A DNA stretch of 21,585 nucleotides from a virus, in the IMG/VR virus record IMGVR_UViG_3300037217_000082, positions 1 to 21,585 of that record. One strand, written 5' to 3'. Positions 1,008 through 21,405 of the stretch are shown in pieces. Position 1 is the stretch's first letter. Each line of letters begins with the position of its first letter. A program made the position numbers and the translations under genes. Under the pieces are notes generated by a model. That model made no database searches. It was not told where the DNA came from and saw nothing but the letters and a program-made list of their open reading frames with translations.

Positions 1008-2134
1008 GCGCGATCGTCGGCCGGCGCGGACAAAGTCGGCAATCGCTCGTGCCGATCGAGACGGTCGTCGGCATGCTGGCCGATCGGATCGAAGCGCTGT
1101 GCCACGCGCTGTTCCCGAACGGCACCAAGGCCGGGCGCGAACCGGAATTTCGCGTCGGCGACCTGGCGGGCACGCCGTCGCGTCACGGGCGCGGCATGGG
1201 ATCGCTGTCGATCCGGCTGATCGAGCCGCGGGCCGGCGTGTGGAAGGATTTCGCGACCGGTGAATGCGGCGATGCGCTCGACCTGATTGCGCAAGCCGTG
1301 TGCGGCGGCGACAAGCGCAGGGCGGTGCGCTGGGCAATGGTGTGGCTGGGGCTGGCCGATGCCGACGCCGAAACGCTTCAGCGCATCCGCCGGGCGCCGC
1401 CGCCGGAGCGCGCAGAAGCGCCGGAGGAGGAATCGGCCACGCGCGGCCGGGCGCAGATGCTTTATCTGAAGGCCGAGGAGCAGATCGTCGGCACGCCGGT
1501 TGACGGTTATCTCGCCGGCCGCGGCCTCGATCTGCGCAAGCTGCCGTTTCCCGTTCGATCGCTCCGGTATCACCCGCGCCTCTGGAATGTCGAAAGCCGC
1601 CGGCACTGGCCCGCCATGGTCGCGGCGGTCGTCGGCGGCGACGGCAAGTTCCTGTCGATCCATCGCACGTGGCTGGACGTTCGCGCCGCTGGCGTGACCA
1701 AGGCGCCTCTGGCCGAGCCGAAGAAGACCTACGGTCCCTATGCCGGCGGCGTCATCCGGCTTTGGCGCGGCATCACGATCGACGGCGAAACGGGCGAGAT
1801 CAAGCAGGCGCGTCGTCTTGCCGAGGTCAAGGCGCCCGTTTGGGTCGATCTGGTGGAAGGGATCGAGGACGGGCTGACGGTCGCGATCGCCGCGCAGGAA
1901 GCGCGCGTGCTGTCGGGCGTCTCGCTCGGCAACATGCTGGCACTAGATTTCGGGCCGACCGTCGAAGGCGTCTATTTCTGGCGCCAGAATGACGAGCCGG
2001 GCAGTCCGGCGGCGAAGACGAGCGACAAGATCGTCGCGGCGCTCCAGGCGCAGGGCAAGCGCGTGCGCATTCCGCGTCCGCCTTGGGGTGTGAAAGACGT
2101 CAACGACTTTGCGCGTGAGGAATTCGCCTCGTGA
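1004..2134 (+). CDS. phage DNA primase-like protein with Toprim domain (DUF7146/Toprim type)
   Basis: Encodes 376 residues from a GTG that overlaps the preceding TGA; an ATG at 1073 is an alternative start 23 codons in. The N-terminal part (about 20-130) has the pattern of CHC2-like phage primases that recognise template DNA, including VGDLAGTPSRHG and VWKDFATGECGDALDLI. The C-terminal half (about 160-370) resembles the Toprim_3 catalytic domain: VEGIEDGLTVAIAA with the likely catalytic Glu at E285, then SGVSLGNM, then a KDVNDF ending. At the usual DxD site the sequence reads RQND (Q328-N329-D330), so the first acidic residue of the canonical pair appears replaced. With the following helicase-like gene it would prime and unwind phage DNA. 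Family assignment is fairly secure; activity is less certain because of the Toprim substitution. Confidence 0.78.
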   Translation: MSAIVGRRGQSRQSLVPIETVVGMLADRIEALCHALFPNGTKAGREPEFRVGDLAGTPSRHGRGMGSLSIRLIEPRAGVWKDFATGECGDALDLIAQAVCGGDKRRAVRWAMVWLGLADADAETLQRIRRAPPPERAEAPEEESATRGRAQMLYLKAEEQIVGTPVDGYLAGRGLDLRKLPFPVRSLRYHPRLWNVESRRHWPAMVAAVVGGDGKFLSIHRTWLDVRAAGVTKAPLAEPKKTYGPYAGGVIRLWRGITIDGETGEIKQARRLAEVKAPVWVDLVEGIEDGLTVAIAAQEARVLSGVSLGNMLALDFGPTVEGVYFWRQNDEPGSPAAKTSDKIVAALQAQGKRVRIPRPPWGVKDVNDFAREEFAS

Positions 2135-3870
2135 GCGGCGGGCTTGACAATGTCCGGCGCTTGCGGGATAGCACGGAAGACGAGCCGCCGAGCGATGGCG
2201 GTTCCGTCGATACCGACGAGTGCCCGGTTACGGTGCTTGGCCGCGCGGCCGGCGTTTATTACTTCATCGCCGCCTCGGGCGAGCTCATGGAAATCGCCGC
2301 GCGGGAGATGACGCCGCGCGTGATCAACAGCGTCTTCGACGGTCGCCTGCGCTGGCTGATCGACAATTTCCCGGCCGTCGACAAGGCCGGCGATCCGACC
2401 GGCGGCGTCAATTACAACTCGGCCGCGGCAGGGTTGATGCGCATGGCGGCGGACCGGCCGATCTGGGATCGCGAAACGCCGATCCGCGGTCGCGGCGTGT
2501 GGCGCAGCGGCGACAAGGTGATCGTGCATTGCGGCGACGGCGTGCTGGTCGGGCGCGACTGGCAGCGGCCCGGCCTCATGATGGGCGCCGCCGTCTATCC
2601 GGCCTATGCGGCGATCCGGCGGCCGGCCGAGCGCGCGGCCACGGCCGCGGATGGCGCGCGGCTGCTCCAGGCTTTCGGTTTGTGGAATTACCAGCGGCCT
2701 GTCATGGGCCATCTGTCGCTCGGCTGGTGCTCGCTCGCCATGCTGGGCGCGGCGCCGCGCTGGCGGGCGCATTTTCTGGCGACCGGCGATCGCGGCTGCG
2801 GGAAAAGCGCGCTCATGAACCTGTTCGGGGCAGCGCTCGGGCCGCAGTCCTATGCGCTTAACGATTTCACCCCAGCCAGCATTCAGCAGACGCTGAACGG
2901 GCAGGGCCGCGCGCTGCTGCTCGACGAAGCCGAGGACGACGGCAGCCTCGGCCGAGTGCAACAGGTCATCGAATTGCTGCGGAAAATGTCCGGTGGAGAC
3001 GGTGCCGTTGGCGCCCGCGGCTCGTCCGGCGGCCAGGCGCGCAGCTTCGTCGTCAACGCGACGACGGCGCTTGGCGCGATCAATCCGCCGCAGCTGCTGC
3101 CGCAGGATCGCAGCCGCATCCTCGTGTGCGAGCTCGGCAAGATCGTCGATACGTCGAACGAAGCCAAGGTGCTGTCGGAAACGCTGTGGGCCGAACAAAT
3201 GTCGCCGCGATTGCGCGCGCGCATGTTGCGTGGGTGGTCGCGCTTCGGCCAGGCGCTCGAGTTCTGGCGGGCCGAGCTTCTGCAAACCTTCTGCGACAAC
3301 CGGCAGGCCGATCAGATCGGCTGTCTCTTGGCCGCGGCCGATATCATGCTCAACGACGCGCCGCCGGACGCGGATTCCACGCGCGTGCTGATCGAGGCGT
3401 TGACGCCGGTGCTGGTCGCGATGTTCCACGCCGACAGTGAGCAGACCGATCCGCAGCTCTGCCTCAACCGCCTCTTCTCGCGCCAGATCGAGGCGTGGGA
3501 CAAGGGGTCGAAGGAGACCGTTGGCGCGGTGGTCGAGAAGGCGCTTACCAACGATTTTCCGGAAACGGCGGAAAAGGCTTTGCGGCGCAACGGGATGCGC
3601 CTCGAAGCGCATAACGGGGAATGGGTGCTGCTGGTCGCGCACATCCATAACGGCATGGCCGAAATCTTCCGCGCGTCGCGCTGGCGAGATGGCGGGTGGA
3701 ACTCGGCGCTATCCCGCATCGAACGCACATTTCCCTGGCCGAAGCCCGAGAAATTTGCCGGTGCGCAGTCGCGGGCGATCGCGATACCGATGGAATACCT
3801 GCCGCTGCCGGAGGATAAGATACTGCGCAGCGTGCCGCCGGCCAGGCCTCCAGATACTGGGGGTGCATGA
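2131..3870 (+). CDS. P-loop helicase/ATPase of phage replication
   Basis: Encodes 579 residues from a GTG overlapping the primase stop by four bases. Walker A is TGDRGCGKSA at residues 218-227 with K225 and S226. Walker B is ALLLDEAED at 261-269 with D265 and E266. A sensor-1-like Asn is at N309 (SFVVNATTALGAI), and QDRSRILV downstream may hold an arginine finger. The region before the P-loop (about 30-210) carries no motif I recognise. The architecture fits the primase-helicase partners of phages, with the primase half supplied by the upstream gene. Likely role: ATP-driven unwinding at the replication fork in the host cytoplasm. SF3-like or DUF927-like affiliation is plausible but not settled by eye. 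Confidence 0.75.
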   Translation: MSGGLDNVRRLRDSTEDEPPSDGGSVDTDECPVTVLGRAAGVYYFIAASGELMEIAAREMTPRVINSVFDGRLRWLIDNFPAVDKAGDPTGGVNYNSAAAGLMRMAADRPIWDRETPIRGRGVWRSGDKVIVHCGDGVLVGRDWQRPGLMMGAAVYPAYAAIRRPAERAATAADGARLLQAFGLWNYQRPVMGHLSLGWCSLAMLGAAPRWRAHFLATGDRGCGKSALMNLFGAALGPQSYALNDFTPASIQQTLNGQGRALLLDEAEDDGSLGRVQQVIELLRKMSGGDGAVGARGSSGGQARSFVVNATTALGAINPPQLLPQDRSRILVCELGKIVDTSNEAKVLSETLWAEQMSPRLRARMLRGWSRFGQALEFWRAELLQTFCDNRQADQIGCLLAAADIMLNDAPPDADSTRVLIEALTPVLVAMFHADSEQTDPQLCLNRLFSRQIEAWDKGSKETVGAVVEKALTNDFPETAEKALRRNGMRLEAHNGEWVLLVAHIHNGMAEIFRASRWRDGGWNSALSRIERTFPWPKPEKFAGAQSRAIAIPMEYLPLPEDKILRSVPPARPPDTGGA

Positions 3871-4079
3871 ATGATCATCCACCATATGTGGTGGTTCGTT
3901 CCGCCGCTTCATCGATTATCGGGCTCGTCGAAGCGGTACGGGGAGCGCTACGCGTATCGCCTGCGTACCACTTTGCGTACCAGAATTTTATCCAATATTT
4001 TCAGACGGTTATAGCAAGAGGATACGGGCCGTACCGGCGCCGTCTCGTGACGACGCGCGCACCCGTGACAGGCCTATAG
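3867..4079 (+). CDS. doubtful small ORF in the intergenic region
   Basis: A 70-codon open frame whose ATG overlaps the helicase stop by four bases, as real genes do here. The product begins MNDHPPYVVVRSAASS and resembles nothing I know. Against it being real: it runs through an AT-richer stretch that contains octamer repeats (TGCGTACC at 3962 and 3974) and a near-perfect 16-base palindrome at 3879-3894, so the bases may be conserved for DNA-level reasons. It is listed as possible only. Confidence 0.25.
   Translation: MNDHPPYVVVRSAASSIIGLVEAVRGALRVSPAYHFAYQNFIQYFQTVIARGYGPYRRRLVTTRAPVTGL
3962..3982 (+). repeat. direct repeat TGCGTACCA x2 (left octamer pair)
   Basis: The nonamer TGCGTACCA occurs at 3962-3970 and again at 3974-3982, a start-to-start spacing of 12 bases (slightly over one helical turn). 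The first eight bases are the reverse complement of the pair at 4156-4174. A related GGTACGGGG lies at 3935-3943 and CGTACCGG at 4030-4037. Phased short repeats like these usually bind a dimeric or multimeric protein. Confidence 0.65.
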
Positions 4080-4107
4080 CGTCTCATCACGTATCGTTCG
4101 TATCTAT

Positions 4108-4126
4108 ATACATAATACATATACAT
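4108..4126. repeat. ATACAT x3 AT-rich run
   Basis: ATACAT occurs at 4108-4113, 4115-4120 and 4121-4126. The run is part of about 35 almost GC-free bases in an otherwise strongly GC-rich window, so it would melt easily. It could be the unwinding element of an origin or the -10 region of a promoter. Confidence 0.55.
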
Positions 4127-4142
4127 ATCAGTGAGTTAAGAG

Positions 4143-4174
4143 GGTACGGGCAGGGGGTACGCAGGCGGTACGCA
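4143..4174 (-). repeat. GGTACGCA x2 plus GGTACGG (right octamer group)
   Basis: GGTACGCA occurs at 4156-4163 and 4167-4174, 11 bases apart start to start, preceded by GGTACGGG at 4143-4150. These are inverted relative to the TGCGTACC pair at 3962-3981. The group lies 30 bases upstream of the start of the regulator gene at 4204, a position suited to an operator or an iteron cluster. Confidence 0.65.
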
Positions 4175-4203
4175 AACAGGGTGGCGTAACAGCGGGGTGC
4201 AAC

Positions 4204-4653
4204 ATGGCTTTAGCGATGACAATGGCTTCGGTAGACGCGCAGGTTTGGACCGAGGACGAGGTGCAGTACCGCCTCGGCGAAGCGGCGGATTGTCTTCGCC
4301 GTATGCCGATGGGCAAGAACGCGCGGCCGAGCACGCGCTCGACCGCTTGGCCCGACGTGGTGCAAGAGACCTTCGACGCGTGGATCAGCTACGGCCGGGA
4401 AGACGCCAGGACAAGGCCGGCGGCGCCATCGTCGGAAGACATCGACCGGATGGATGAGGTCATGCAGTGGCTCATGTGGCTTTCGGCCGATCAACGCCGG
4501 GTCATCTGGGCTCGCGCCTGCGACATCAAATGGCGCCGGCTGGAAGACATCGACGGCCGCAGCGTCAGGACGCTGCAACGCCTGCATAACGACGGATTGT
4601 GTGTCATCGCCCGCCGCCTCAACAAAATCTGCTTTCCTGCGAAAAAATCTTGA
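4204..4653 (+). CDS. DUF6362-like protein with sigma-region-4-like HTH; candidate late-gene regulator
   Basis: Encodes 149 residues. The N-terminal part has VWTEDEVQYRLGEAADCLRR and a WPDVVQETFDAW segment, and the C-terminal part (about 90-142) reads LSADQRRVIWARACDIKW, then LEDIDGRSVRTLQRLH and LCVIARRLN. This pattern matches what I know of DUF6362 phage proteins and has the layout of a sigma-70 region 4 helix-turn-helix. ArpU, RinA and similar phage late activators have the same kind of fold and the same place, between replication genes and terminase. I therefore infer a DNA-binding late-gene switch; that role is not demonstrated for the family. Several ATGs are near the start (4204, 4216, 4222); 4204 has a weak GGGG upstream. 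The stop overlaps a TTGACGC repeat. Confidence 0.68.
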   Translation: MALAMTMASVDAQVWTEDEVQYRLGEAADCLRRMPMGKNARPSTRSTAWPDVVQETFDAWISYGREDARTRPAAPSSEDIDRMDEVMQWLMWLSADQRRVIWARACDIKWRRLEDIDGRSVRTLQRLHNDGLCVIARRLNKICFPAKKS

Positions 4654-4670
4654 CGCACTTGACGCGTCAA
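4650..4670. promoter_or_regulatory. TTGACGC repeat and TTGACGCGTCAA palindrome; candidate operator/promoter
   Basis: TTGACGC at 4650-4656 is followed nine bases later by a perfect 12-base palindrome TTGACGCGTCAA at 4659-4670. TTGACG also matches a -35 hexamer, but no convincing -10 lies 16-18 bases further on, so an activator-dependent promoter or an operator is more likely than an ordinary sigma-70 promoter. It lies at the end of the DUF6362-like gene and ahead of the late genes. Confidence 0.45.
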
Positions 4671-4701
4671 TGGTAGGTCCAGACCCACACTGTGCCGAAT
4701 T

Positions 4702-4740
4702 GCGACCGCCCCGGATATCTCCGCGGCGGTCGCTTCGTTT
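4702..4740 (+). terminator. terminator-like hairpin upstream of the late module
   Basis: GCGACCGCC (4702-4710) pairs perfectly with GGCGGTCGC (4725-4733). Inside, CGGA (4712-4715) pairs with TCCG (4720-4723) around a TATC loop. The stem is followed by TTCGTTTT, a modest U-tract. The structure could end transcription of the regulator gene or, if transcription reads through, separate it from the late genes. Confidence 0.6.
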
Positions 4741-4753
4741 TCGGGGATGGGCC

Positions 4754-5395
4754 ATGACGTCGATGCGGGTGCGGATCGACGGCCGGGCCGTGAGCCGCAT
4801 GCTCCGCGACCTGCGATCCGATCAGGTGCCGTTCGCCATCGCGACGGCGGTCAATGCCCTGGCCAAGCGCGTCGCCGATGCCGAGCGTGAAGCCGTCGGT
4901 TCCGTCTTCGACAAGGCCACGCCGTTCACCCGCAACGCGTTCGCCGTTCAGCGCGCGTCGAAGGCGATGCCATACGCCATCGTCTTCGCCAAGGACAAGC
5001 AGGACGACTACCTCGCGCCCTACGAGACTGGTGGCCGTCAGTTCCTCGGCAGCAAGCACGCGCTGCTGAACCCGAAGGGGATAGCGCTCAACCAGTTCGG
5101 CAACCTGCCGAAAGGGGCACTGCAACGCTTGAAGGGCCGGAAGAACGTCTTCATCGGCGCATTGCCGACCAAGGCCGGCATGGTCGCGGGCGTGTGGCTG
5201 CGCCTGCCGTCGCCGCGTCGTCCGAAGGGCTCGCCGCCGGTGCCGCACAAGCATCGCCTGCTCATCCGCTGGGGCGATGCGCAGCCGGTCCAAGCCAAAC
5301 TGCATTTCGGCGATCGCGCGGTGGCAGTCGCCAACGCCAACCTGGTCGCCGAGTTCGACGCCGCCATGGCCAAGGCCATCGCGACGGCAAAGTGA
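4754..5395 (+). CDS. phage structural-type protein, unassigned (possibly minor tail gpZ-like)
   Basis: Encodes 213 residues from the ATG at 4754; the open frame continues upstream but overlaps the DUF6362-like gene and the hairpin, so the internal ATG is preferred. Seen in the sequence: an N-terminal VNALAKRVADAE helix, a conserved-looking TPFTRNAF motif, FAKDKQDDYLAPYETGG, FGNLPKGALQRLKGRKNVF, and a basic Pro-rich patch before the C-terminal helix. The overall pattern resembles a family of phage proteins of about 200 residues that I associate loosely with lambda gpZ/neck proteins that help complete tails or head-tail joints. Placement ahead of terminase is unusual for gpZ, so the function stays open. 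It is followed by 120 non-coding bases. Confidence 0.6.
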   Translation: MTSMRVRIDGRAVSRMLRDLRSDQVPFAIATAVNALAKRVADAEREAVGSVFDKATPFTRNAFAVQRASKAMPYAIVFAKDKQDDYLAPYETGGRQFLGSKHALLNPKGIALNQFGNLPKGALQRLKGRKNVFIGALPTKAGMVAGVWLRLPSPRRPKGSPPVPHKHRLLIRWGDAQPVQAKLHFGDRAVAVANANLVAEFDAAMAKAIATAK

Positions 5396-10196: not shown

Positions 10197-10604
10197 ATGT
10201 GGTACGATCCCGTGAGGCGAGTATTTGTTTCGGGTCGCATATCGGTACTGCTGCCGCGTGACCTGGCGATCGCTCGGTCGCGCTTTGCGGTCAAGTACAG
10301 CTTCTATTTTTTCGGTATGCGCGATGAGTGTATTTTTGCGCTTGCGGAAACCAGGGAAAGCGCAGAGGCGTCCGCTAAAGAGCTTCGATCCTGGCGCAAG
10401 GGGTGCAGCGTCTGGGTTGACCCTCTGGGTGGGCAAGAAGATCTAGTCAATGCGATATTTGAATTCTTTACGCAACGTCCGCCATATGATCCCGAACTCT
10501 TGAAGGAATGGGTGCCGGCGACCGATTGGCGAGAGGTGCTCGATCAGCGCGAACGTGAGCGGTGCGCCTTCGCCGACCGCGGCCTGCCGCGACCGAGCTG
10601 GTAA
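10197..10604 (+). CDS. inserted small gene ending in a copy of the portal C-terminus
   Basis: Encodes 135 residues with a good AAGGAG ribosome binding site at 10186-10191. The first 108 residues are unfamiliar: MWYDPVRRVFVSGRI, an aromatic KYSFYFFGMRDECIF segment, a charged helix, then VDPLGGQEDLVNAIFEFF. Base composition here is visibly less GC-rich than in neighbours, suggesting foreign origin. The last 26 residues (DWREVLDQRE through GLPRPSW) match portal residues 521-546 at 19 of 26 positions. The stop overlaps the protease ATG (TAATG), as the original portal stop may once have done. I infer a moron-like insertion near the portal 3' end. Function unknown; the shared tail could let it contact portal partners. 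Confidence 0.7.
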   Translation: MWYDPVRRVFVSGRISVLLPRDLAIARSRFAVKYSFYFFGMRDECIFALAETRESAEASAKELRSWRKGCSVWVDPLGGQEDLVNAIFEFFTQRPPYDPELLKEWVPATDWREVLDQRERERCAFADRGLPRPSW

Positions 10605-11467
10605 TGAAGCGCTTCCCACACCTGGCGCAGCGTCTCTTCAACACGCCGATCGCCATCCTGCCGGCCAAGGCCGAGGTGGTCATGTGTGCGCTGGCCGATC
10701 GCCTGGGCATTGCCAAGCTGTTCCGGGCCGACGGTGGAACCGTGCCGCTCGCCATGGACGATTGGGAAGACGACGGGCCGGGTGAATATCGCGGCTACGA
10801 GCTGGTCGCCGATGTGGCGATCATCCCGGTCGAAGGGACGCTCGTCCAGAAGCTCGGCCAACTGCGGCCGTATTCCGGCATGTGCGGCTACGACGCGATC
10901 CGGGCTGGCCTGTCGATGTCGCTGGAAGATGAGCGCGTCCGGGCCATCGTCCTTGACATCGATTCACCGGGCGGCGAGGTGGCCGGCTGCTTCGACCTGG
11001 TCGACGCGATCTACGCCGCGCGCGGCACGAAACCGATCTGGGCGATCCTGTCGGAAACGGCATTCAGCGCTGCCTATGCCATTGCGTCGGCCGCCGATCG
11101 CATCTGCGTGCCCAGGACCGGAGGGACCGGATCGGTCGGCGTGATCTGCCTGCATGTTGATTTCTCGCAGGCGCTAGCCACCGAGGGCATCGCGGTCACC
11201 TTGATCCAATACGGCGCCCGGAAATCCGACGGGTCGGAATTCAAGCCCTTGTCGGCCGACGCACTCGCCCGGTTCCAGGCGGACGTCGACGGCATGGGCG
11301 AAATCTTCGTGGAGACTGTCGCGCGCAATCGAGGGCTCAAGGCGAACGCCGTTCGCGCGACCGAGGCGACGACCTTCCTCGGTGCGGCCGGCGTCAAGGT
11401 CGGCCTTGCCGACGCCGTCATGTCGCCCGATGCAGCCTTTGCCGAGCTGGTGAAACAGCTGGGCTGA
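10604..11467 (+). CDS. S49-family head maturation protease (lambda gpC-type)
   Basis: Encodes 287 residues from the ATG in TAATG. Lambda gpC-type proteases trim scaffold and head proteins during prohead maturation. The S49/SppA fold is clear: LDIDSPGGEVAG, then ETAFSAAYAIASAAD with nucleophile Ser155, then TGSVGVICLHVD, and the Lys general base at K207 in GARKSDG, followed by FVETVARNRGL and GLADAV. Lambda gpC continues into a scaffold domain, but this protein stops after the protease, and a scaffold-like protein is encoded separately just downstream. The 53 bases after the stop hold only a GC-rich direct repeat (GCGGCCCGGC at 11471 and 11490). Confidence 0.9.
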   Translation: MKRFPHLAQRLFNTPIAILPAKAEVVMCALADRLGIAKLFRADGGTVPLAMDDWEDDGPGEYRGYELVADVAIIPVEGTLVQKLGQLRPYSGMCGYDAIRAGLSMSLEDERVRAIVLDIDSPGGEVAGCFDLVDAIYAARGTKPIWAILSETAFSAAYAIASAADRICVPRTGGTGSVGVICLHVDFSQALATEGIAVTLIQYGARKSDGSEFKPLSADALARFQADVDGMGEIFVETVARNRGLKANAVRATEATTFLGAAGVKVGLADAVMSPDAAFAELVKQLG

Positions 11468-11520: not shown

Positions 11521-12186
11521 ATGTCTTTGACCAATCGCCTGCGCAGCGCGGCGAGCGCGCTGTCGTTTGCTCATTTGGCCGGCGTCAAGGGCGTCGGGCC
11601 GTCCAAGGCGCGCGCCCGCGCCGATGATGATGCCGATGACGGTAATGCCGGCTCAAACGATCAGAATGACGACGGCAACGGCCAAAGCAAGAAGTCGAAG
11701 AAGGCCAAGAAGGCCGATGACGACGGCGGCTACCAATACGCCGATGACGACGACCCGCAGGCCGACGATGGCGACGCCGATGCGGACGACGACGGTGATG
11801 CCGACGACCAGGGCGACAACGAGGATGACGACGAAGACGGCGGCGATCGCGACGACGACGAAGCCGAGATGCGCGGCAATTCGCCCGTTGCCAAGGCACG
11901 CCGCCGCGAGCGTGCCCGCTGTGCCGCTATTTTCTCGAGCCGTCACGCGGCCAAGAACGTCGCCTTCGCGGCGCATCTGGCCTTCAACACCACGATGACG
12001 CGCCGCCAGGCGCTGGCATCGCTCAAGGATGCCCCGGCGCCGGCCGCGGCCGATCCGCTCGCCCGCACGCGGCGCAATCCCAGTCTCGGCGCTGCCGGCG
12101 GCAGCCGGTCCGGCCCGTCTCGCGCCGTCGCACATGACCGCATGGTGGGCTTCATGCGCGGCGCCCGCGACGGCAACAGCAAGTAA
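11521..12186 (+). CDS. Asp-rich scaffold-like head assembly protein
   Basis: Encodes 221 residues with AGGAGA at 11511-11516. Residues about 34-118 are a low-complexity acidic tract of Asp, Glu, Gly and Asn with one Lys cluster (KKSKKAKK). The part after it, ARRRERARCAAIFSSRHAAK and LAFNTTMTRRQALASLKDA, matches the short block found at the C-terminal scaffold end of many S49 head proteases. It lies where lambda Nu3 is, between protease and decoration protein. It would guide major capsid assembly and then be removed by the protease. The acidic tract may mimic DNA or keep the prohead interior soluble; this is inference. Confidence 0.68.
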   Translation: MSLTNRLRSAASALSFAHLAGVKGVGPSKARARADDDADDGNAGSNDQNDDGNGQSKKSKKAKKADDDGGYQYADDDDPQADDGDADADDDGDADDQGDNEDDDEDGGDRDDDEAEMRGNSPVAKARRRERARCAAIFSSRHAAKNVAFAAHLAFNTTMTRRQALASLKDAPAPAAADPLARTRRNPSLGAAGGSRSGPSRAVAHDRMVGFMRGARDGNSK

Positions 12187-12210: not shown

Positions 12211-13527
12211 ATGTCCGGCATCGGCATCACGCTGACCGAGCTCCGCCACCGCGGAGAATTCCTCGTGTCCTGCGCCGAAGGTCACCTGTCGATCGACCGC
12301 GGCGTCGTCGAGAACAACACCGGCCAGCTGATGCAATTGCAGGCCGGCACCGTCATGGCGAAGCAGATCGACGGGTCGTGGGCGCCGCTGGTGCGGGCCG
12401 GCGTCGTCGGCAGCCTGATGTCGACGACGATCCTCGCTGCGGGCGCGGGCTTCGCGGCGATCCCCGCCGTCAGCGCCGAATCGGGCAATGGCGGCGTCTT
12501 CGTGCCGACGATGACCGCGGTCACGGTGCAGCCGGCCGGCGGCAATATCACCGGCACCTACCAGCCGAACGACCTGGTGACCCTGGCCGGCGGTCAGACA
12601 CCGGTCAAGCTGGCAGTGACGACGACCTCGCTTGCCGCCGCCGGGTCATCGGCACCGGGAACGGCCTATGCACCGGGCGATACGATCACCCCGGCCGGCG
12701 GCACGCAGATCGCAGCACCACAACTGACCGTCACGACGACCAAGGTCGTCGGCGCCACGATCGTGGCGCCCGGCAATGGCGGCACGAATGGTGCTGCCAC
12801 GGTGACGGGCACCACCGGCACGGGCGTCAAATTCCAGGCGAGCGTGACGATCGCGAACGGCGCGATTTCCGCCGTCAACGCCATTACCCTTGCCGGCTCC
12901 TACACGGTCAATCCGGCAGCACCGGCGGACGAGCCGGTGACCGGCGGCAACCTCAACGGCGCTGCGCTGAACGTCGTCATGGGCGTGGCGGCGGTCGCGG
13001 TTTCGAATGGCGGTGTCTTCACGGCCAATGCCGCCGCGTTCACCCAGGCGGCAACCTCGGGCAACGGCATCGGGGCGACCTTCAGCAATCTGCTGTTCGC
13101 ACCGAACGCCGTGACGCTGGTTTCCGGCGGCGCCTATACCGTGCTGCCAGCCACGCCGATCGCCCAGGCCGCAACGACCGGGCAGGGTGCCGGCGCCGTC
13201 TTCACGGCGAGCTGGGGCGTCCTCTCTGTCTCGGCAACCGGCGGCGCAAACTACGATCCCGGCGACCCGCTGGTCTTTGCGGGCGGCAACCCGACCCAAC
13301 CGGCGGGCGGCTTCATCAATGTCAGCACGGCCGGCGATCTGCGCGCGGCGGGCATCCTCTACGACACACTCTACATCCTGGCCGGACAGACCGTCACCAG
13401 CAGCGCCTTCGTCGTCCGCCTGGCGGAGGTCAACGGCTCCGAGCTGACCTGGGATGCGTCCATGGGGCCGGAGGACATCGCGGCGGCGCTCGCCCAGCTG
13501 CGCGACCTCGGCATCGTCGCCCGATAG
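12211..13527 (+). CDS. head decoration protein (lambda gpD family) with large repeat insertion
   Basis: Encodes 438 residues, about four times lambda gpD (110). The ends match the HDPD decoration family: EFLVSCAEGHLSIDRGVV and LQAGTVMAKQ near the N-terminus, and GDLRAAGILYDTL with VVRLAEVNGSELTW at about 375-420. Between them, residues about 68-370 form a Gly/Ala/Thr-rich insertion of repeats. One unit is xYxPxDxxTxAGG with a following LxVTTT (Y117, Y153 and a variant at Y348). Another is a GGxYTVxP unit with GxGxGAxF. gpD trimers stabilise the packed capsid from outside, so the insertion should project from the head. Its beta-rich repeats could bind cell surfaces or polysaccharide; that is inference. 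No frameshift or stop interrupts it. Confidence 0.8.
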   Translation: MSGIGITLTELRHRGEFLVSCAEGHLSIDRGVVENNTGQLMQLQAGTVMAKQIDGSWAPLVRAGVVGSLMSTTILAAGAGFAAIPAVSAESGNGGVFVPTMTAVTVQPAGGNITGTYQPNDLVTLAGGQTPVKLAVTTTSLAAAGSSAPGTAYAPGDTITPAGGTQIAAPQLTVTTTKVVGATIVAPGNGGTNGAATVTGTTGTGVKFQASVTIANGAISAVNAITLAGSYTVNPAAPADEPVTGGNLNGAALNVVMGVAAVAVSNGGVFTANAAAFTQAATSGNGIGATFSNLLFAPNAVTLVSGGAYTVLPATPIAQAATTGQGAGAVFTASWGVLSVSATGGANYDPGDPLVFAGGNPTQPAGGFINVSTAGDLRAAGILYDTLYILAGQTVTSSAFVVRLAEVNGSELTWDASMGPEDIAAALAQLRDLGIVAR

Positions 13528-18312: not shown

Positions 18313-21300
18313 ATGACCGATAAGAAAGTATCGTTCATCGTCTCCGCCGTCGACGACACGTCGGAAACGCTCGACAAGGTCAACAAGCGCCTGAAGGCGC
18401 AGAACGAACCCTACGATCGTCTGAACAAGCAGTGGAAGTCGCTGAAGGAGAATAGCGGGCTCGACACGGCGGCGCGCAGCCTGCGTTCTATCGGCTCCGC
18501 CGGTGGCGATGTCGTGCGCTCGGTCGAGAAGGTCGCGGCACCGCTGGCCGCGATCACGGGCGCCGCAAGCATAGCCGGGATGACGCGGCTCATCGAAAGC
18601 TGGGAACAGCTTGGGTCGGAACTGAAGTTCTCGGCCTCGGCCATGGGCATCAACGTCTCGTCGTTGAGCCGGCTTCAGGGTGCTGCGCGCCTGGCCGGCG
18701 GCAGTGCCGACGGCATGGCGTCGGGCCTGGGCAATCTGGGCCGGGTCATGAACGATGCGGTCGGCGGGCGAAACGGCGAGGCTGTGGCGCTTTTCAACAC
18801 AATGGGCATCGCGCTCACGGATACGGCCGGCCGCGCCCGCTCCGTCGACAAGGTCATGCCCGAGCTCGCCGATAAGGTCGCGTCGATCCGCGATCCGTTC
18901 ACGCAAGCCCGCGTCGCCGGCATGCTGTTCGGCGGTGCTGCGGATTCGCTGCTGCCGGTCCTGCGCATGGGGTCGGCCGGCATGGCGGACTATGCCGCCA
19001 TGGCTGGTCGATATGGCGCCATGTCCGACGAGGGCGCGGATGCGGCCAACCGCCTGCGCCTGGCGCAAACCCGCGTCGGCCTGGCCGTCGACGGCTTGCA
19101 GAACTCGATTGCCGAGCATCTTGAGCCGATCCTCGGCCCGATGCTGACCGATTTCGCCGAATGGGTTGCGCTCAACCGGGACTGGATTGCCACCGATATC
19201 GGCGATGCGGTGAAGGAAGTCGGCGATTGGCTGCGCCGTATGGATTGGAAGGGCACGGGCGAGGAAATCAAGTCCGCGGCGGAGGCGGTCAACGGCGTCG
19301 TCCAGGCCTTCGGCGGCTGGGGCGCCGTCGTCAAATGGGTGATCGGCCTTCAGGTGGCGGGGTGGATCGCCGGCATCCTGGTGCCGATGGCGACGCTGGG
19401 CCTGTCGCTGCTGCGCATGCCGGGCGCCATTCGCGCCGTGGCGTCCGAGTTCCGCGGGATGCGCACGGCGGCGTCCGCAGCAGCCGGGGCGGCGGCGGAA
19501 ATCAAACCGCCGGCGGCGGCCGGGCCGCCCGGCAAACCCGGCGGTCTCTCGGGCAAGGCCGTGGCGTTGAGCGGCGCCGGCCTGGCGCTCGAACTGGTCA
19601 CGGCCGTGCCGGCAGTGCAGCAGCACCTGGTAGAGCAAGGCGACCTGACGGCCGATGGCGTCGCCGCCGGCAAGGGCGTTCCGGACGCAGGATTTACCCG
19701 GAACAAGATCCTGGCGGACGCGAAGGATCGCTTCGGCCCGGACACGGCCGGATTCGAGGCCTGGCAGCAGGCGCTCGACCGCAAGACGGCGCGGGACGAT
19801 CAGGACAATTCCTTCTTCGGCGCGATGAGCGGCGTCGACGAACGCAAGACGGGCCTCGGCGTCGTCACCGGCCTGTTCGACCATGGCGGCCTGTTGGGCA
19901 GCGGCTTGACCGATGCCGAAAAGCAGTCACGCCGTGACGAATATGACCGCGTCCTTGCGACCCTGCCGGCGAAGGCTACGGAACAGCCGAAGGACGGGCA
20001 GGCGCCGAAGGTGCCCGAGGCGCCCAAGGGCGCGCAGCCGTCGACAGTCCCGGAAATCCAGGGCCCGCCGGCAGACGATGCGCAACCGCCGACGGTGCCC
20101 GCTGCGGACAAGCCGGACGGTCCGGCAGAGATCGCCGGCCCGAAGGTCGAAGATTTGTGGAAGGATCTGTCGAAGGGGAAGGGCGCGGACAAGGATCGAG
20201 ACCGCGCCAGCGATCAGTACGACGCGAACGCCGTTCGCCATCCGGCGATCGCTGCGCCCGACGGCGATGCGCCGCCGACCCGCCTGGCCGATCTGGGGCC
20301 GCTCGACCTGACCGAATTGCGCGTGCTGCATGCCGATCGGATCGTGATCGACACGGCAAGTGTCGAGCTCGGCCATCGCGGAGGGCGGACGCAGCGCGGC
20401 GAAGGTGAGGCGCCAATCGGCGGTTTCGAGCATGCGTCGTTCACAGTGCCGGATCGGTCCGTGCCGCCGCCTGCATCGACGCCGACGCGCCTGGCGCCAA
20501 CGTCCAATATCAAGGTGCCGCCGATACGCGCTCCGGGCGTGCCGGGCGCTGGCACAGAGGATACGGCCGCAGCGGCTTTAGCCGATGCGCGACGGCCTGG
20601 GAAGACGGACGATCGCGGCCGGCCAGCGGCAAAGGGTGGGTTGAACGCGGCGACGTTGGAACTGCTGAATTTCTATCAGGTGCACGGGCTCAGCAAGGCG
20701 GCGGCGTCCGGCGTCGTCGCCAATGAGATCGAAGAAAGCGGCCTCAACACGAAGGCGGTCGGCGATGGCGGGCACGCGATCGGCCTGCAGCAATTGCATC
20801 CCGACCGTCAGCTTGAAGCCGAGAAATTCCTCGGCAAGCCGCTGGTCGATGCCAGCCTGACGGAGCAGGCTGCGGCGACATTGCATGAGCTGAACACGAC
20901 GGAACGACGCGCTGGCGCGCTGCTCAGCCGGGACACGACGGCGGCGCAGGCTGCGGCGGATTTCTCGCAGTACGATGAGCGGCCGGCCGACGTCGAAGGC
21001 AACAAGCGGCGCCGCGCGGCGCTGGCGGAAAAGATCTTCGCCGAGGCTCCGGACTTCAAAGCGCCGGGTCCGGCCGATCATCCTTCGCCGGTCCTGGCAG
21101 AAGCCGACAAACCGGCGCCGCCTCCCGAAAGCCCCGCGCGCGCCGAAATCGCCACAACCTCGGCCGAGGCGCCTGCCTTCGCTGCGGCCGACCCGTCCTT
21201 GCCGCAGTTCGGCCCCCCGATCGAGCTGCCCGAACTGCCGCGTGGAACGACGGGCGGCGAAGACGACGGCGACGGCAAGAACAAGCTCGACGTCCATATC

Positions 21301-21405
21301 CGCCACAGCAACGTGCCGGCGGGCACGACGCTCACCGCGGGGACGGACGGCGACATTTTCGGCGGGCCGGCACGGGTCGAGACGAGCATGGCTTTTGCGG
21401 TCTGA
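18313..21405 (+). CDS. tape measure protein with phage tail lysozyme domain
   Basis: Encodes 1030 residues; the ATG directly abuts the frameshift product's stop. The N-terminal 60 residues are charged coiled-coil (DDTSETLDKVNKRLKAQNEP). Residues about 70-330 are the helical tape region with SIAGMTRLIESWEQLGSELK and repeated Gly/Ala helices. A hydrophobic segment (about 340-372) could insert into the inner membrane. A Pro-rich linker occupies about 550-640. Residues about 777-911 match the Phage_lysozyme2 tail hydrolase pattern: SKAAASGVVANEIEESGLN, AVGDGGHAIGLQQLHPDRQ and SQYDERP, with E808 a likely catalytic acid. The protein sets tail length and should cut peptidoglycan as DNA enters. Tail length would be roughly 150 nm at 0.15 nm per residue, as a rule of thumb. 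Confidence 0.92.
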   Translation: MTDKKVSFIVSAVDDTSETLDKVNKRLKAQNEPYDRLNKQWKSLKENSGLDTAARSLRSIGSAGGDVVRSVEKVAAPLAAITGAASIAGMTRLIESWEQLGSELKFSASAMGINVSSLSRLQGAARLAGGSADGMASGLGNLGRVMNDAVGGRNGEAVALFNTMGIALTDTAGRARSVDKVMPELADKVASIRDPFTQARVAGMLFGGAADSLLPVLRMGSAGMADYAAMAGRYGAMSDEGADAANRLRLAQTRVGLAVDGLQNSIAEHLEPILGPMLTDFAEWVALNRDWIATDIGDAVKEVGDWLRRMDWKGTGEEIKSAAEAVNGVVQAFGGWGAVVKWVIGLQVAGWIAGILVPMATLGLSLLRMPGAIRAVASEFRGMRTAASAAAGAAAEIKPPAAAGPPGKPGGLSGKAVALSGAGLALELVTAVPAVQQHLVEQGDLTADGVAAGKGVPDAGFTRNKILADAKDRFGPDTAGFEAWQQALDRKTARDDQDNSFFGAMSGVDERKTGLGVVTGLFDHGGLLGSGLTDAEKQSRRDEYDRVLATLPAKATEQPKDGQAPKVPEAPKGAQPSTVPEIQGPPADDAQPPTVPAADKPDGPAEIAGPKVEDLWKDLSKGKGADKDRDRASDQYDANAVRHPAIAAPDGDAPPTRLADLGPLDLTELRVLHADRIVIDTASVELGHRGGRTQRGEGEAPIGGFEHASFTVPDRSVPPPASTPTRLAPTSNIKVPPIRAPGVPGAGTEDTAAAALADARRPGKTDDRGRPAAKGGLNAATLELLNFYQVHGLSKAAASGVVANEIEESGLNTKAVGDGGHAIGLQQLHPDRQLEAEKFLGKPLVDASLTEQAAATLHELNTTERRAGALLSRDTTAAQAAADFSQYDERPADVEGNKRRRAALAEKIFAEAPDFKAPGPADHPSPVLAEADKPAPPPESPARAEIATTSAEAPAFAAADPSLPQFGPPIELPELPRGTTGGEDDGDGKNKLDVHIRHSNVPAGTTLTAGTDGDIFGGPARVETSMAFAV

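Follow-up and report, generated by a model that had tools for sequence, protein, structure and literature searches.

What is an internal stretch of some 300 repetitive residues doing in a phage decoration protein, and does its role concern the capsid alone? The question arises from one gene in an IMG/VR virus record of 21,585 bases, which was analyzed over its whole length and is called the window below. The window carries head and tail genes of a phage with a contractile tail: terminase and portal, S49 protease, an acidic protein, the decoration gene, capsid protein E and the head-tail connector, and then tail sheath, tail tube, and tape measure. The decoration gene (12211..13527, plus strand) encodes 438 residues plus a stop, and a GAAAGGG stretch lies shortly 5' of its ATG at 12211. 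It adjoins, and directly precedes, the gene for the major capsid protein (PF03864; 13569..14606, plus strand), and the S49-type head maturation protease (10562..11467, plus strand) is encoded upstream. The order protease, decoration protein, capsid protein is the one expected for a gpD-type protein, with one gene (11521-12186) sitting between the protease and the decoration gene. The product of this intervening gene is an Asp-rich protein of 221 residues that matches phrog_6382, with a head maturation protease family as second match, and is perhaps a scaffold. Elsewhere in the window, residues 785-909 of the tape measure protein (18313-21405) correspond to a phage tail lysozyme domain (PF18013, E 9.8e-19), and the gene at 4454-5395, which lies upstream of the terminase genes and away from the other tail genes, matches a minor tail protein family (phrog_1924, over residues 103-313).

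The ends of the decoration protein are gpD-type by profile and predicted fold

The initial annotation held that the N- and C-terminal blocks of gpD were intact in this protein. We built a gpD profile HMM from ten insert-free relatives (L018 and nine of 19 loci from a relatives' search), with the window excluded. It matched residues 8-79 at 31.7 bits, convincingly to about residue 61, and residues 370-438 at 43.4 bits, against a best score of 10.2 bits among 1000 shuffles of the two ends, which bears out both blocks. The N-terminal block thus spans residues 1 to about 61 (12211..12393, plus strand), as drawn from the profile and alignment A6, and the C-terminal block spans residues 370-438 (13318..13524, plus strand). 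The two blocks break at about the same profile position (57-60), which argues for a clean insertion. The Pfam HDPD model matched the C-terminal part only, at 28.6 bits, 0.5 bit under its cut-off of 29.1 bits; this cut-off was passed in the relative L003 (33.6 bits). Lambda gpD was not reached by sequence search from this decoration protein.

The AlphaFold2 model, computed from alignment A6, was of high confidence at the ends only, with pLDDT under 50 across nearly the whole insert. None of the 4 matches that Foldseek listed for the full-length model was a decoration protein, and the gpD-type match came only from a second look with VIA-align. Applied to the 26 best Foldseek chains, VIA-align superposed 97 to 116 model residues on seven beta-tulip decoration-protein entries at Z scores of 7.9 to 11.6 (Sf14, 11.6; Bas63, 10.7; SHP, 9.6 in two entries; PhiTE, 9.5; lambda, 8.8; YSD1, 7.9), the decoration chains of these entries being identified by entry title and chain length. 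Structure prediction had been proposed as a check on the initial annotation, and the predicted ends aligned with beta-tulip structures rather than departing from the gpD fold. By profile and by predicted fold, the ends of the protein are therefore of the gpD (beta-tulip) type.

The insert is built of two kinds of repeat

Between the two blocks lies an insert of 308 residues (about 62-369; 12394..13317, plus strand), with boundaries good to a few residues; the annotated repeat insert of about 300 residues (12414-13320) was thus confirmed with slightly different limits. It consists of two repeats of about 36 residues (type 1), a spacer, three repeats of about 38 residues (type 2), and one stray motif copy, all on the plus strand. 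Repeat detection with repeat-unit profiles recovered the type-1 copies at residues 103-138 (12517..12624; 42.5 bits) and 141-176 (12631..12738; 46.4 bits), both of which are contained in the profile that scored them, and the type-2 copies at residues 221-258 (12871..12984; 53.5 bits), 259-296 (12985..13098; 43.7 bits), and 298-335 (13102..13215; 45.1 bits). The third type-1 motif, at residues 348-359 (13252..13287), is a motif match accompanied by a weak module-profile match (residues 343-374, 7.0 bits).

The type-1 motif YxPxDxxx(x)AGG starts at residues 117, 153, and 348 and was absent from 2000 shuffles of the insert, and the type-2 motif G[SAV][YF]T[VA] occurs at residues 229, 268, and 307, with a spacing of exactly 39 (shuffle mean 0.04, maximum 2), both motifs having been picked after inspection of the sequence. 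A plain 25-residue self-comparison of the insert gave a modest excess (49 versus a maximum of 44 in 20 shuffles); the stronger support for the repeats comes from the repeat-unit profiles and from the occurrence of the module elsewhere. Recent duplication was dropped as their source, since the repeats are too diverged. In composition, the insert is rich in Ala (60), Gly (49), and Thr (43) and has only 11 charged residues (5 Asp, 2 Glu, 3 Lys, 1 Arg), and its computed pI of 4.3 is low only through this scarcity of charges.

The insert is conserved in one relative, and other relatives use another loop

We collected 36 IMG/VR loci that encode a related capsid protein (62-81% identity), and the gene upstream of it reads as gpD-type in all of them (17 were aligned in A1 and 7 in A6; all 36 were read, those outside A1 by eye). 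Most of these decoration genes carry one (24) or two (9) modules of about 85 residues of an NTGNG type, one has no insert (L018), one is cut by the contig end (L020), and a single one, L003, has the window's kind of insert. L003 lies on a separate contig, and its whole protein is 70% identical to that of the window. An assembly chimera was dropped as an explanation, because this independent contig has the identical architecture. The identity between the two proteins is 77% in the N block, 65% in the C block, 70% in the insert (NG86 dN 0.23, dS 0.73), and 68% in the module (dN 0.24, dS 0.79); the dN/dS of the module, about 0.3, is close to that of the N-terminal gpD block. The insert is conserved as protein between the window and L003.

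The NTGNG-type modules were also considered as the source of the insert, and this was dropped: profile comparison gave a probability of 1.2%, and the repeat-unit profiles made only one 10-bit match on two NTGNG-type gpDs. In alignment A6, these modules stand before the strand corresponding to GSWAPL (rows AGKWVP, SASLVP, and others), and the window's insert stands after it, so that two loops are used. With one insertion site on each side of this strand, it does not follow that both face outward. MAFFT placed the window's strand otherwise in both A1 and A6, and the placement adopted here is the one settled by the insert-free gpD profile. Alignments A3 and A4, which combined gpDs and fragments of the module, had their gpD rows misaligned and were set aside; structure predictions relied on A5 for the module and on A6 for gpD.

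The NTGNG modules themselves (decoration genes of L004-L038, e.g., L012:3467-3709) weakly resemble a flagellar hook-associated domain when compared as a 27-row profile (FlgL 5ziz, E 0.021). One of the 27 members matched an FlgK D2-like Pfam model (E 0.032), and nine matched WZC_N, the best at 3.7e-4 and below its cut-off; the likeness to the flagellar domain is suggestive only. Among named phages, Synechococcus phage Yong-M2-251 and Aurantimonas phage AmM-1 (capsid proteins with 46% and 37% identity, respectively) have decoration proteins without an insert, of 121 and 124 residues, and the decoration protein of Cyanophage Cy-LDV1 has 208 residues.

The repeat module occurs in several kinds of virion protein

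Within the insert, residues 100-334 (12508..13212, plus strand) form a module shared with proteins of other phages. In L002, a 925-residue phrog_376 tail protein contains a match to window residues 108-332 at 55% identity. Judging from its N-terminus and its neighbors, we take this protein to be of the nozzle type (T7 gp12-like). A scan based on the window and L003 returned only L003's own contig; the profile scan found the module at 32 loci, 31 of them in IMG/VR and one in a Hyphomicrobiales MAG (L070), which was the only match among 397 genomes of its order. The carriers comprise 13 nozzle-type phrog_376 proteins (four of them, L042, L044, L046, and L047, assigned by N-terminal likeness only), 7 tail sheath proteins (phrog_23 or phrog_10581), and 6 proteins encoded directly after the portal (L051-L056). 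The rest are two phrog_3758 and one phrog_10938 virion proteins, one spike-like protein, one unknown, and L040, which repeats L003's contig. These classes rest on scans of nine phrog_376 members and three sheaths, the others being assigned by near-identical N-termini or by neighbors.

A profile built from six non-gpD carriers scored the window at 254.5 bits, against at most 2.5 bits for the controls (200 shuffled sequences, the two gpD blocks joined together, and eight further proteins of the window). Alignment A5 did not include L044-L048, L050-L057, and the partial L060-L069, for reasons of length or coverage, nor the near-copies L042 and L059. Copy numbers, whose comparison the initial annotation had proposed, were read in 21 carriers: two type-1 and three type-2 repeats in eight, including the window, four and six in another four, and fewer in six partial ones. 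The 2+3 layout is kept within nozzle-type tail proteins and a tail sheath at 46-57% identity. Enlarged copies, with 4 type-1 and 4-5 type-2 repeats, are found in three genes of 487-576 residues directly after the portal (L051:3869-5596, L052:3770-5230, and L056:3821-5284), which may represent a second kind of head protein with the module. In the L002 protein (1971-4745), the module is directly followed by an E1_FCCH Pfam match (residues 356-425, E 2.4e-10).

The module is thus found in at least four kinds of unrelated virion proteins (gpD, phrog_376 tail protein, tail sheath, and others), and, as far as these sequence matches go, is not specific to the capsid. The carriers are alike in being part of the virion, often of its exterior, as would suit a general role directed outward. 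The presence of the same module in nozzle-type tail proteins and sheaths of other phages makes a head-specific role less likely. The initial annotation, which read the insert as a display on the capsid, was thus right about the gpD ends and the insert of about 300 residues, and overlooked the module in the nozzle-type tail and sheath proteins.

Family, fold, and ligand searches with the module

The module of the window protein had no match in Pfam, NCBIfam, PHROGs, or PDB sequences. Searches of phage records with P0002 and with the module alone (limits E 0.01 and E 10) returned nothing, as did searches of PDB sequences with P0002 and with profile A5. Three PHROGs (phrog_701, phrog_9703, and phrog_2885), one of which (phrog_9703) is labeled head decoration, matched repeat stretches of other carriers (L051, L061, and L067) weakly to moderately, whereas the window protein itself matched none of them; the repeats thus probably belong to a broader kind. 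In the open-licence literature, the terms used brought up no paper whose title or abstract dealt with the module or with such an insert in a gpD.

Modeled alone, the module was predicted to be all-beta, with a mean pLDDT of 64 and no significant fold match by Foldseek or VIA-align, and Pfam gave no Ig-like family match. VIA-align scored the T4 sheath best (Z 5.0, 74 residues); the occurrence of the module in sheaths made this match tempting, but it was within the chance range and was rejected as the module's fold. The searches lent no support to the glycan or mucus binding that had been proposed. The insert matched no carbohydrate-binding family in Pfam, and the galectins, alginate lyases, and carbohydrate-binding modules listed by Foldseek were not significant (best E 0.35, TM below 0.2), so this listing was set aside as an indication of glycan binding. 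Mucus binding has no support.

A probable movable surface module on a gpD-type scaffold

On balance, we favor, with some reserve, a gpD-type decoration protein carrying an inserted mobile repeat module as an outward domain for weak contacts, with the tulip still cementing the head. A lambda-gpD-type (beta-tulip) protein would have received the 308-residue insert in the loop after the GSWAPL strand, an insert built round the mobile module with its two type-1 and three type-2 repeats. As excerpts from PMC7602432, PMC7385642, and PMC11821841 indicate, gpD-family proteins sit on the head as trimers with the N-terminal arm on the shell; by analogy, the window protein would trimerize at the threefold sites of the mature head, and the insert, added to the trimer platform, would be displayed in hundreds of copies. 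High-copy display on the head is thus what we infer from the family. Because head decoration, nozzle-type, and sheath proteins all carry the module, it likely serves a general, outward-directed purpose, and it is probably a movable surface part. Its distribution suggests an accessory surface domain making weak, many-fold contact outside the virion, with host envelope sugars, exopolysaccharide, or particles as candidate partners, as proposed for Ig-like domains. Weak binding of cell-surface components has been put forward for added domains on heads and sheaths (PMC10491603, PMC9230969, in part), and Ig-like proteins on a phage capsid are described as conferring adhesion to epithelial cells (PMC13370021, in part). 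Weak adhesion would accordingly be the most likely role of the module, while the tulip part would retain its cementing role.

The main rival, which we consider doubtful, is that the insert is itself a cementing device, its modules reinforcing the head by packing against one another or against the capsid, like the outer chainmail formed by the N-terminal hooks of YSD1_16. The gpD-type proteins are indeed stabilizers (PMC7602432, PMC7385642, in the parts available), stabilization has also been proposed for added sheath domains (in part of PMC9230969), and the near absence of charge in the insert would permit packing. However, nozzle-type and sheath proteins, which have other symmetries, carry the same module, so that head-specific contacts cannot be the common function, and close relatives manage without a window-type insert. 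An unlikely reading is that the module coats the virions passively or acts as a spacer, holding them apart or shielding them; the expected copy number is high, and Hoc keeps T4 dispersed (PMC10385173, in part), but that effect is attributed to acidic charge, and the insert, in place of the acidic, strongly charged surface of Hoc, has just 7 acidic and 4 basic side chains in its 308 residues. More improbable still would be a neutral hitchhiker, spread by recombination and tolerated in exposed loops without benefit. The patchy distribution, with one of 36 capsid relatives and many kinds of virion protein, would suit it, whereas the constraint on the module between the window and L003 (dN/dS as given above) and the repeat layout kept between distant carriers speak against it.

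Beyond the favored reading of a weak-contact surface domain on a cementing tulip, we put forward a wider proposal more tentatively. An unnamed, probably non-Ig module (two type-1 repeats, a spacer, and three type-2 repeats; 4 + 6 in some phages) may move as a unit among decoration, nozzle-type, and sheath proteins of unrelated phages, giving them a common adhesive coat, and gpD-type proteins may be natural scaffolds that take unrelated modules at two loops. The interest lies in the spread of the module and less in the insertion, because decoration proteins with added domains are already known. A module without a match in the family libraries searched joins the domains traded by phages between unrelated outer proteins, and the function of added domains on heads and tails becomes newly testable, since the same module is available for comparison in three settings: head, nozzle-type protein, and sheath. 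Natural gpD-type proteins, moreover, accommodate inserts of about 85 to 308 residues in two internal loops, and this points to sites of natural insertion in a family of scaffolds employed for display.

Comparison with known systems

Lambda gpD, SHP, Sf14 gp33, and YSD1_16 resemble the window protein in the predicted fold of its ends and in gene position before the capsid gene, but they have about 100-150 residues, and the window protein has 308 more in an internal loop. The phi29 head fiber gp8.5 likewise combines a beta-tulip base with an extended projecting part (in the account of PMC7602432, in part); this part is a C-terminal helix-turn-helix supercoil, whereas the window's insert is internal and predicted to be beta-rich. 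T4 Hoc, N4 gp17, and Milano LP1 (Ig-like) also display added domains on the head, and adhesion or dispersal has been proposed for them (PMC10385173, PMC7602432, and PMC10491603, each in part). They differ in their capsid-binding parts, and the window's module has no Ig-like Pfam match. Extra domains that enter a conserved virion protein and pass from phage to phage are also known from tail sheaths and from domain shuffling of phage proteins (PMC9230969 and PMC10684548, in part). The sheath and shuffled domains described there are mostly Ig-like, whereas here one repeat module is common to head decoration, nozzle-type, and sheath proteins.
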